A stretch of 58,215 bases of DNA from Tabrizicola sp. (GTDB lineage Bacteria; Pseudomonadota; Alphaproteobacteria; Rhodobacterales; Rhodobacteraceae), in the NCBI RefSeq assembly GCF_016792905.1, contig NZ_JAEULP010000085.1, positions 1 through 58,215 on the forward strand, written 5' to 3'. Position 1 is the stretch's first letter. Each line of letters begins with the position of its first letter. The notes below the pieces were generated by a model. The model was given only the letters and a program-made list of their open reading frames with translations, made no database searches and was not told where the DNA came from. Both the position numbers and the translations under genes were made by a program. Of this stretch, positions 15,864 to 26,150 are shown one piece after another.

Positions 15864-17159
15864 TCAGAGCCCCGGATAGATGGGGAAGCGCTGGCAGAGC
15901 GCCTCGACCTCGGCGCGGACCTTGGCTTCGACGGCGCCGTTGCCGTCCTCGCCGTTCGCGGCCAGGCCCTCGACCACCTCGATGATCCAGGCCGCGATCT
16001 GGCGGAACTCGACCTCGGTGAAGCCGCGGGTGGTGCCGGCAGGCGTGCCGAGGCGGACGCCGGAGGTGATGGTGGGCTTCTCGGTGTCGAAGGGGATGCC
16101 GTTCTTGTTGCAGGTGATCCAGGCGCGGCCGAGCGCCTTCTCGGTCGCGTTGCCCTTCACGCCCTTGGGGCGCAGGTCGACCAGCATCAGGTGGCTGTCG
16201 GTGCCGCCGGTGACGATGTCGAGGCCACCCTTCATCAGCTCGTCGGCAAGGGCCTGGGCGTTCTTCACCACCTGCGCCTGGTAGGTCTTGAACTCGGGGC
16301 GCAGCGCCTCGCCGAAGGCCACGGCTTTGGCGGCGATGACATGCATCAGCGGCCCGCCCTGGATGCCGGGGAAGATCGCCGAGTTGACCTTCTTGGCGAT
16401 CTCTTCGTCGTTCGTGAGGATCATGCCGCCGCGCGGCCCGCGCAGCGTCTTGTGGGTGGTGGTGGTGGCGACATGGGCATGCGGGAAGGGGCTGGGGTAG
16501 ATCCCCGCCGCGACGAGGCCCGCGAAATGCGCCATGTCGACGAGCAGGTAGGCGCCCACGCTGTCAGCAATCTCGCGCATGCGCTTGAAGTCGATGATCC
16601 GGGGGATCGCGCTGCCGCCCGCGATGATCAGCTTCGGCTGGTGCTCGGTCGCAAGCTCGGCCAGCTGGTCGTAGTTCAGCGTCAGGTCCTGTTTGCGGAC
16701 GCCATACTGCACCGCCTTGAACCACTTGCCGGACTGGTTCGGCGCCGCGCCATGGGTCAGGTGGCCGCCCGCGTCGAGCGACATGCCGAGGATGGTGTCG
16801 CCGGGCTTGAGGAGCGCCTGGAACACGCCCTGGTTGGCCTGGCTACCGGAGTTCGGCTGGACGTTGGCATGGGCGCAGGCGAAAAGCTTGCAGGCCCGGT
16901 CGATGGCCAGGTTTTCCGCCACGTCGACATACTGGCAGCCGCCGTAATAGCGCTTGCCGGGGTAGCCTTCGGCGTATTTGTTGGTCAGGACGGACCCTTG
17001 CGCCTCCATCACCGCGCGGGAGACGATGTTTTCGGACGCGATCAGCTCGATCTCGTGGTGCTGGCGGCCCAGTTCCTGCGTCACCGCCCCGTAGAGCTCG
17101 GGGTCGCGCGAGGCGAGGGATTCGGTGAAGAAGCCGGGGTCGCGGGGCTGGGCATTCAT
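15864..17159 (-). CDS. glyA: serine hydroxymethyltransferase
   Basis: GlyA joins glycine and methylene-THF to make serine, the C1 entry step of the serine cycle. The 431-residue PLP enzyme has the cofactor lysine K237 in [16 protein letters not shown], the substrate motif [10 protein letters not shown], and [10 protein letters not shown] and [10 protein letters not shown] near the active site. It is the last gene of the minus-strand set sgaA-mtkA-mtkB-hpr-ppc-glyA, starting 17 bases after ppc ends. This location implies a role in C1 assimilation; whether a second glyA exists elsewhere cannot be seen. Length is normal. Confidence 0.97.
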
Positions 17160-17176
17160 CTGGTTGGTCCTTTCGG

Positions 17177-25165: not shown

Positions 25166-25172
25166 CCCAAAC

Positions 25173-26150
25173 ATGTCTTTCCACGTCATCACGCAGGCGC
25201 CCGCGCGCCTGAACCGCAGCGAGCTGGCCGTTCCGGGCAGCGCCCCCCAGATGTTCGAGAAGGCCGCCGCGTCCGACGCGGACGTGATCTTCCTGGACCT
25301 GGAGGATGCCGTCGCGCCCGACGACAAGGCGCAGGCCCGCAAGAACATCATCAAGGCACTGAACGAGATCGACTGGGGCAAGAAGACCATGTCGGTGCGG
25401 ATCAACGGTCTCGACACGCATTACATGTACCGCGACGTGGTGGATGTGGTGGAACAGGCCGGGGAGCGGTTGGACCTGATCATGATCCCGAAGGTCGGGA
25501 CGGCGGCGGACGTCTATGCGGTCGACATGATGGTCACGCAGATCGAGGATGCGAAGGGCCTGAAGAAGCGGATCGGCTTCGAGCACATCATCGAGACGGC
25601 GCTGGGGATGCAGAACGTCACCGAGATTGCGGGCGCGTCGAAGCGGAACGAGTCGCTGCATTTCGGGGTGGCGGACTATGCCGCCTCGACCCGGGCGCGG
25701 ACGACGATCATCGGCGGGGTGAACCCGGACTATTCGGTGCTGACCGACAAGCTGGAGGATGGCACCCGCGCGGTGCATTGGGGCGATATGTGGCACTATG
25801 CGCTGGCCCGGATGGTGGTGGCGGCGCGGGCGAACGGGCTGCGGCCGGTGGATGGGCCGTTCGGCGACTTTTCGGACCCGGATGGGTATCGGGCGGCGGC
25901 GAAGCGGGCGGCGGTCTTGGGCTGCGAGGGGAAGTGGGCGATCCACCCGAGCCAGATCGCGCTGGCGAACGAGGTGATGAGCCCGTCCGAGGCCGAGGTC
26001 ACGCGGGCCAAGCGGATCCTGGAGGCGATGGCGCAGGCCGCGGCCGAGGGCAAGGGGGCGGTGTCGCTGGACGGGCGGCTGATCGACTATGCCTCGATCC
26101 GGCAGGCGGAAGTGCTGGTCCAGAAAGCGAAGCAGATCGCCGGGGCGTGA
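25173..26150 (+). CDS. mcl: malyl-CoA lyase
   Basis: Mcl splits malyl-CoA into acetyl-CoA and glyoxylate, closing the serine cycle. The 325-residue HpcH/HpaI-fold protein has the family motifs VIFLDLEDAVAPDDK (about 38-52), substrate R76 in SVRINGLDTHYMYRD, the metal ligand E141 in HIIETALGM, and GKWAIHPSQIALANEV. From memory it resembles serine-cycle MclA of Methylobacterium (ELAVPGS, ADYAASTRAR, GGVN-DYSVLTDK) more than Rhodobacter Mcl1 of the ethylmalonyl-CoA pathway. It stands alone on the plus strand, 86 bases after the regulator. Confidence 0.95.
   Translation: MSFHVITQAPARLNRSELAVPGSAPQMFEKAAASDADVIFLDLEDAVAPDDKAQARKNIIKALNEIDWGKKTMSVRINGLDTHYMYRDVVDVVEQAGERLDLIMIPKVGTAADVYAVDMMVTQIEDAKGLKKRIGFEHIIETALGMQNVTEIAGASKRNESLHFGVADYAASTRARTTIIGGVNPDYSVLTDKLEDGTRAVHWGDMWHYALARMVVAARANGLRPVDGPFGDFSDPDGYRAAAKRAAVLGCEGKWAIHPSQIALANEVMSPSEAEVTRAKRILEAMAQAAAEGKGAVSLDGRLIDYASIRQAEVLVQKAKQIAGA

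Follow-up and report, generated by a model that had tools for sequence, protein, structure and literature searches.

A serine-cycle gene cluster with a divergent NarL-type regulator and a predicted operator pair in Tabrizicola sp. and related Rhodobacterales

Introduction

The subject of this work is a serine-cycle gene cluster of Tabrizicola sp. (Rhodobacterales, Rhodobacteraceae), comprising sgaA-mtkA-mtkB-hpr-ppc-glyA and a divergent regulator gene with mcl. It is located on a stretch of 58,215 nt (assembly GCF_016792905.1, contig NZ_JAEULP010000085.1), which was analysed as a whole and is referred to as the window. The serine cycle of the Methylobacterium extorquens type has the same chemistry and uses the ethylmalonyl-CoA pathway for glyoxylate, but it differs in gene order, in its LysR-type regulator QscR instead of a NarL-type protein, and in a canonical serine-glyoxylate aminotransferase (SGA).

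Paracoccus aminophilus carries a serine-cycle cluster without the glycerate kinase gene gck, and homologous methylotrophy islands occur in Paracoccus N5 and in many roseobacters (PMC4543880, 2015). Transcripts of hpr, gck, and ecm of P. aminophilus are raised in methylotrophic growth, and many proteins of this related cluster are highly divergent from the well-studied serine-cycle enzymes (PMC4543880). An XoxF roseobacter combines the serine cycle with the ethylmalonyl-CoA pathway and has neither isocitrate lyase nor RuBisCO (PMC5934484). Serine-cycle proteins of Ruegeria pomeroyi are raised on N-osmolytes, e.g., choline and glycine betaine (PMC12478193), and serine-cycle genes were predicted for Nereida and Gemmobacter as well, both of them Rhodobacteraceae (PMC4770636, PMC4653772).

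The window has in common with P. aminophilus JCM 7686, Paracoccus sp. N5, and roseobacters a compact cluster of divergent serine-cycle proteins, and with P. aminophilus a gck of another lineage outside the cluster, the ethylmalonyl-CoA pathway, and the lack of RuBisCO (PMC4543880). P. aminophilus differs in possessing isocitrate lyase and in carrying N-methylglutamate (NMG) and trimethylamine (TMA) genes on a chromid (PMC4543880), whereas no isocitrate lyase was found in the window genome and its cassette lies between tRNA-Met and DUF498-secDF. The cluster is thus a member of an already known serine-cycle kind. An earlier interpretation of the same DNA, made from the letters alone (the sequence-only reading), had taken a serine cycle to be unusual in Rhodobacterales. 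This premise does not hold, since this order of genes is found repeatedly across the Rhodobacterales and has been published for Paracoccus and roseobacters (PMC4543880).

Organization of the cluster

The cluster and its border consist of the following features:

15780..15856, plus strand: tRNA-Met (CAU), found by ARAGORN; its 3' end is the left cassette border, as in relatives
15864..17159, minus strand: glyA, serine hydroxymethyltransferase (NF000586 639 bits, cut-off 335)
17177..19834, minus strand: ppc, divergent phosphoenolpyruvate carboxylase (PF00311 701 bits; NF000584 705 bits, below cut-off 815)
19836..20807, minus strand: hpr, 2-hydroxyacid dehydrogenase of the hydroxypyruvate/glyoxylate reductase type (family and nearest structures; no NCBIfam equivalog over cut-off)
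20819..21712, minus strand: mtkB, malate-CoA ligase alpha subunit (NF004230, a succinate-CoA ligase alpha model, 433 bits; adjoins mtkA in relatives)
21712..22908, minus strand: mtkA, malate-CoA ligase beta subunit (NF010647 719 bits, cut-off 604)
22921..24168, minus strand: sgaA, divergent class-V aminotransferase, presumed serine-glyoxylate aminotransferase (PF00266 20.1 bits, cut-off 21.5)
24367..24382, no strand: predicted operator, distal palindrome (10/12 matches to CTACCC-N4-GGGTAG)
24410..24425, no strand: predicted operator, proximal palindrome (11/12 matches to CTACCC-N4-GGGTAG)
24439..25086, plus strand: NarL/LuxR-type regulator with degenerate receiver domain (PF00196 and PF00072 over cut-off; NarL alignment)
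25173..26150, plus strand: mcl, L-malyl-CoA lyase (PDB 5ugr 502 bits; 4l9y 392 bits)

According to open reading frames (ORFs) and family models, the genes from sgaA to glyA form one tight minus-strand operon (15864-24168), and the plus-strand genes of the NarL/LuxR-type regulator and of malyl-CoA lyase (mcl) are divergent from it. Adjacent genes are separated by 17 (glyA/ppc), 1 (ppc/hpr), 11 (hpr/mtkB), and 12 bases (mtkA/sgaA), and mtkB and mtkA overlap by 1 base. The sequence-only reading had described this arrangement correctly, both for the tight operon (gaps of 1-17 bases or overlaps) and for the divergent regulator and lyase genes. The ORF-list starts of sgaA (24345) and ppc (20074) are over-extended; for ppc, the ATG start was used. 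Of the enzymes required for a serine cycle, GlyA, Hpr, Ppc, MtkA, and Mcl are encoded, with Hpr and Ppc assigned by Pfam family and nearest structures and below any NCBIfam cut-off. Glycerate kinase, enolase, and malate dehydrogenase, which the sequence-only reading had listed as the steps missing at the locus, are indeed absent from it, and glycerate kinase is encoded elsewhere in the genome.

Metabolic role and partner genes

The cluster very probably serves C1 assimilation by the serine cycle together with the ethylmalonyl-CoA pathway, and the C1 units most likely come from several methylated compounds. GlyA would form serine from glycine and methylene-tetrahydrofolate (THF), SgaA, Hpr, and the glycerate kinase encoded elsewhere would convert serine to 2-phosphoglycerate, Ppc would fix CO2, MtkAB would activate malate, and Mcl would split malyl-CoA to glyoxylate and acetyl-CoA. 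The ethylmalonyl-CoA pathway would regenerate glyoxylate from acetyl-CoA, consistent with the presence of ccr and the failure to find isocitrate lyase. C1 units would derive from trimethylamine/methylamine and, via an XoxF-like dehydrogenase, from methanol, pass through the THF enzymes FTHFS and FolD, and probably also come from sarcosine and glycine betaine. The divergent atypical regulator would bind two palindromes and control both transcripts. We infer this direction of the pathway, the specificity of SgaA, and the control of both transcripts; genes, gene order, and presence or absence of the named partners were observed in an assembly that is 93% complete (92.9%), in which absences are fair, not certain.

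Partner genes were surveyed in the window genome and in 24 genomes picked from 80 MtkA loci (see below), a non-random selection consisting mainly of named isolates. The crotonyl-CoA carboxylase gene ccr is present in the window genome (over cut-off in 19/25 surveyed genomes), as are genes for glycerate kinase (PF13660 278 bits; 23/25), FTHFS with an adjoining folD (21/25), type-III glutamine synthetase/GmaS (23/25), and a pyrroloquinoline quinone (PQQ) methanol/ethanol dehydrogenase (10/25), where "XoxF" is our name and the model itself says methanol/ethanol family. Family models scored FolD, PqqC, and trimethylamine monooxygenase (Tmm; 834 bits, cut-off 675) over cut-off in the retrieved stretches. 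Isocitrate lyase (6/25), RuBisCO (7/25), and Fae of the tetrahydromethanopterin (H4MPT) route (4/25) were not found in the window genome. With ccr present and isocitrate lyase not found, the genome corresponds in this respect to the isocitrate-lyase-negative variant of the serine cycle, and with gmaS, Tmm, the XoxF-like dehydrogenase, pqqC, FTHFS, and FolD it has the C1-oxidation genes expected of a methylotroph. On contig 84, the gmaS cluster is followed by the Tmm gene; the genes preceding gmaS may encode MgsABC, which is our reading of GATase and glutamate-synthase-like matches below their cut-offs. The cobaltochelatase genes cobS/cobT, relevant to B12 for ethylmalonyl-CoA mutases, were detected over cut-off at 3310-4335 and 6698-8566 of the window.

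These results support the serine-cycle identity proposed by the sequence-only reading, for which family models, the separation of MtkA from SucC (see below), and the C1-oxidation genes speak. A glycerate 2-kinase outside the cluster and methanol/methylamine oxidation genes (XoxF-like dehydrogenase, pqqC, gmaS, and Tmm), to be looked for according to that reading, were found, and a lack of C1-oxidation genes, which it considered as counter-evidence, did not emerge. Among the THF- and H4MPT-linked genes it had named, FTHFS and FolD were recovered and Fae was not. The ethylmalonyl-CoA pathway, regarded there as an alternative to the serine cycle, is represented by ccr and regenerates glyoxylate for it.

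Several points weigh against this assignment. Evidence for the ethylmalonyl-CoA pathway consists of ccr and mcl, the sole enzymes of the pathway searched for. None of SgaA, Hpr, and Ppc reaches the cut-off of a curated NCBIfam model, and hence their naming rests on family and context and their specificities on context. In a set of 32 genomes of the genus, GmaS is over cut-off in 29, i.e., in 13 of the 14 that carry the cluster and in 16 of the 18 that lack it; due to this near-universal occurrence, co-occurrence of gmaS and the cluster gives no support. Finally, the only gck found in the window genome is of a different lineage from the cluster-linked genes, and its role may lie in another pathway: its product is 38% identical to that of the cluster-linked gck of T. 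oligotrophica and 69% to that of a Roseovarius gck. In T. oligotrophica, Leisingera, Paracoccus sp. MA, and one further genome of the genus (G053), gck adjoins mcl. A search with 13 sequences revealed no gck remnant between mcl and DUF498 in the window or in seven same-site relatives. The gck of the window genome (contig 32, L126:1717-3126) lies beside an apparent LacI-type regulator gene and genes of GMC-type oxidoreductases, recognized by eye, and because of these neighbours it may belong to sugar-acid catabolism. A similar case, a gck of another lineage outside the cluster, is described for P. aminophilus (PMC4543880).

From the gene content we infer that the cluster may imply real methylotrophic growth. 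Assimilation of osmolyte-derived methyl groups would also be a fair reading, since gmaS occurs with and without the cluster and serine-cycle proteins of R. pomeroyi rise on N-osmolytes (PMC12478193). Going further in this direction, it is conceivable, if rather doubtful, that the cluster mainly functions in the catabolism of choline, glycine betaine, and sarcosine; glycine and methylene-THF would then be processed via serine, MtkAB and Mcl would only regenerate the glyoxylate amino acceptor, and single-carbon compounds alone would not support growth. Genes of the sarcosine-oxidase type, a possible source of methylene-THF and glycine, are located 20 kb away on the same contig:

45782..52098, minus strand: sox-type heterotetrameric sarcosine oxidase genes, with two other ORFs between soxB and soxD
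50851-52098, minus strand: soxB (TIGR01373 646 bits, cut-off 529)
49220-49543, minus strand: soxD (by eye)
46305-49223, minus strand: soxA (SoxA domains; PDB 1vrq 673 bits)
45782-46327, minus strand: soxG (83 bits, below cut-off 144)

However, these genes could also encode N-methylglutamate dehydrogenase, a homologue of sarcosine oxidase, which would point back to methylamine. The occurrence of gmaS in 16 of the 18 cluster-free genomes of the genus and the response of R. pomeroyi to N-osmolytes (PMC12478193) suit osmolyte catabolism as well, but Tmm, gmaS, and the XoxF-like dehydrogenase are also encoded in the window genome, and cluster-free genomes may carry another serine-cycle type.

Operation in the reverse direction is unlikely. 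Mcl would then condense acetyl-CoA and glyoxylate and MtkAB would recover ATP from malyl-CoA, thereby replacing malate synthase during growth on acetate via the ethylmalonyl-CoA pathway. The presence of ccr without a detected isocitrate lyase and the name of the nearest solved Mcl relative, 5ugr (malyl-CoA/beta-methylmalyl-CoA lyase), are compatible with this, but growth on acetate would not require sgaA, hpr, ppc, and glyA, the genes with which mtkAB forms one operon.

Enzyme identities

That MtkAB is a plain succinyl-CoA synthetase of the tricarboxylic acid (TCA) cycle is highly improbable: mtkB passes sucD models and is annotated as sucD in relatives, and MtkA passes SucC models (555 bits, cut-off 370) with succinyl-CoA synthetases as best PDB matches, but a separate true sucC exists on contig 15, its product reaches only 525 bits on the malate-CoA ligase model NF010647 (cut-off 604), and a tree including one SucC row separates the two proteins. 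The contig-15 SucC is 50% identical to MtkA and scores 584 bits on the SucC model. In the quick MtkA tree of 96 rows, the window protein is situated among Rhodobacterales MtkAs, and the SucC branch measures 3.6 changes per column; 11 of 107 rows were omitted, namely nine second copies from genomes already included and two copies of the window gene. Judged by its sequence, MtkA is distinct from SucC and is a malate-CoA ligase. The constellation that the sequence-only reading had named as fatal, MtkAB inside true SucCD and no other sucCD in the genome, is thus not what was found. The nearest named relative found is MtkA of Tabrizicola oligotrophica (92% identity).

SgaA matches a class-V aminotransferase profile weakly, has PDB matches of the alanine-glyoxylate aminotransferase (AGT)/SGA type, and exceeds no cut-off of a curated model. 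A structure prediction based on 12 sequences was poor (mean predicted local distance difference test, pLDDT, of 62) and was set aside. For loci of the genus found by SgaA, mtkA adjoins in 13 of 14 genomes, and the 14th locus ends before it. The nearest solved structures of Hpr are glyoxylate reductases and glycerate dehydrogenases.

Related loci in the Rhodobacterales

Gene order was compared at 80 MtkA loci, many of which end at contig ends, so that all counts are lower bounds. A gene of the SgaA type directly precedes mtkA in at least 27 loci, followed by mtkB in at least 26, hpr in at least 22, and ppc in at least 10, with glyA downstream in at least 8. The divergent regulator gene occurs in at least 24 loci; mcl is located beyond it in at least 14, and in at least 6 it lies downstream on the same strand. 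The other 53 loci have no SgaA type directly upstream (some end there), and many of them show the order mcl-mtkA-mtkB.

Nine plasmid records carry the SgaA type with 60-80% identity, two of which were read in detail. The megaplasmid of Paracoccus sp. MA (NZ_CP087599) has the same six-gene order with an SgaA of 75% identity, but fhs-folD-mcl-gck is located directly upstream on the same strand, and the divergent regulator gene and the palindromes are absent. Leisingera (L011, L012) and Ruegeria conchae (NZ_CP081104) share the six-gene order, the divergent regulator gene, and the paired sites. In Leisingera, mcl lies beyond the regulator gene as in the window, but gck is situated beside mcl and the flanks are different. 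R. conchae differs by the location of mcl after glyA, by a gck matched only in two pieces, and by other flanks. The two match pieces of this plasmid-borne gck (L198:24380-25538), which neighbours the cluster, overlap, and the sole annotation, covering a part of the gene, is MOFRL protein; the gene looks broken.

Regulator and predicted operator pair

Within a 951-aa open frame, the regulator exceeds the cut-offs of PF00196 (73 bits) and PF00072 (43.8 bits, cut-off 30.2), and it aligns to NarL (1a04) along its length, with a receiver and a LuxR-type helix-turn-helix (HTH) domain of the NarL/FixJ type. Of the phospho-relay residues, the window protein keeps only one acid and the Asp. Over 40 loci, in a register taken from the NarL alignment, 34 retain the Asp; the Thr/Ser position is occupied by Gly or Ala in 38 and by Ser in 2, the Lys position by Arg in 35 and by Lys in 2, and the second acid is replaced by Ser or Gly in 31. 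The residue set associated with phosphorylation in NarL/FixJ proteins (acid pair, Asp, Thr/Ser, Lys) is therefore incomplete; phosphorylation may still occur, given the Asp kept in most loci. No histidine kinase gene was seen beside the regulator gene, and no published description of such a regulator was found, judging by titles and abstract openings.

In the intergenic region of sgaA and the regulator gene, the palindromes CTACCCATATTGGTGG (at 24367) and CTACCCAAATAGGTAG (at 24410) occur 43 bp apart. Of 50 divergent intergenic regions, 10 duplicated others from the same genomes and were removed, which left 40 unique ones for a survey. In 36 of these 40 regions, the best CTACCC-N4-GGGTAG site has at least 10/12 matches vs a mean of 0.38 in 50 first-order shuffle sets; the exceptions are L022, L030, and L143 with 9 and L071 with less. 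For pairs of sites with at least 9/12 matches, 28 of 41 are spaced 41-43 bases, and none at 40-44 bases occurred in the shuffles. Significance is overstated by the shuffles, because the consensus comes from the window itself and the loci share ancestry. Controls of spacing, half-site, and other locus types are the stronger evidence for an operator. Among 30 half-sites of the same letters, CTACCC yields 36 loci, the next one 12, and the median is 0; a spacer of 4 yields 36 loci and the next best (spacer 8) 17. No site with at least 10 matches was found in the first 250 bases of sgaA (0/40) or of the regulator gene (0/40, 1 at 9).

The 40 SgaA loci (576 kb) contain 24 sites with at least 11 matches, and the 53 of 80 loci without SgaA type (864 kb) contain 3 and no pair of at least 10 at 40-44 bases. 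The regulator-free Paracoccus cluster lacks a site (best match 7/12), and L023, with no regulator gene in reach, has none over 8. Two sites of 10 and two of 9 occur in L013 and L021, respectively, where the regulator genes were possibly cut off or missed. Five partner loci of the window genome (gck, FTHFS-FolD, ccr, gmaS-tmm, and xoxF; ~85 kb) and the rest of the window contain no site with at least 11 matches; single 10/12 sites occur in 3 of these 5 loci, but the remaining window sequence has none. A promoter-like match at 24305-24334 was not used. The regulator and the conserved operator pair are the part of the system for which we found no description in the literature, and they are worth following.

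Genomic site and patchy occurrence in the genus

Among the 32 genomes of the genus, 14 carry the SgaA type, 11 with at least 87% identity and 3 with 74-77%. The genomic site was read in 8 of the 11 close genomes (window, L175-L178, L191, L193, and L194; G041, G042, and G046 were not read). DUF498-secF follows mcl in all 8, with the interval 26151-26446 at the right border in the window. The window and four relatives have tRNA-Met on the contig of the cassette; in G052, the border between tRNA and glyA is seen on a second contig. L182 and L186 represent the natural empty site, since DUF498-secF starts 21-22 bases after the tRNA gene; in eight other cluster-free genomes, neither DUF498 nor secF occurs within the 11-12 kb read beyond tRNA-Met. 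A short cassette without ppc-glyA is present in L176-L178. No repeat of the tRNA 3' end (integrase att site) was found, nor was an integrase gene noticed within the cassette.

In trees of the cluster proteins, the window falls together with G040 (96% identity), but in those of SecD, SecF, DUF498, YajC, and SerS it falls with G052, G027, and G055. This disagreement between flank and cluster proteins would fit an exchange of the cassette by recombination in the shared flanks. The GmaS tree separates the window from G040, and a weak PurM tree pairs them; the latter (30 genomes of the genus) was too weak to place gain or loss of the cassette. A second cluster lineage within the genus, nearer to Frigidibacter, is found in G030, G053, and G054 (L142-L144, L189, and L190). 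The stretches read of G053 and G054 showed none of the flanks tRNA-Met, purM, and secF, and gck is beside mcl (in G054 cut off by the contig end). Elsewhere in the window, a long ORF at 36761-40141 weakly matches a caspase-type peptidase model (NF047832, 70 bits, below cut-off 140).

Taking regulator and site together, we consider it evenly balanced whether the regulator would be an orphan NarL-type protein that phosphorylation no longer controls, that presumably responds to a C1 or C2 metabolite, and that binds both palindromes in the divergent promoter region of sgaA and its own gene, with about four helical turns between the two sites. It would then be a dedicated serine-cycle switch of Rhodobacterales, travelling with a cassette that enters and leaves a fixed tRNA-Met site by recombination, irrespective of the C1-oxidation genes.

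Implications

The analysis corrects the idea of serine-cycle assimilation as exceptional in Rhodobacterales. It gives a concrete regulator and a predicted operator for C1 assimilation in a group in which serine-cycle proteins rise on marine osmolytes. Together with the near-universal gmaS, the patchy cassette offers natural pairs with and without the cluster in one genus, in which it may be seen what assimilation adds to C1 oxidation.

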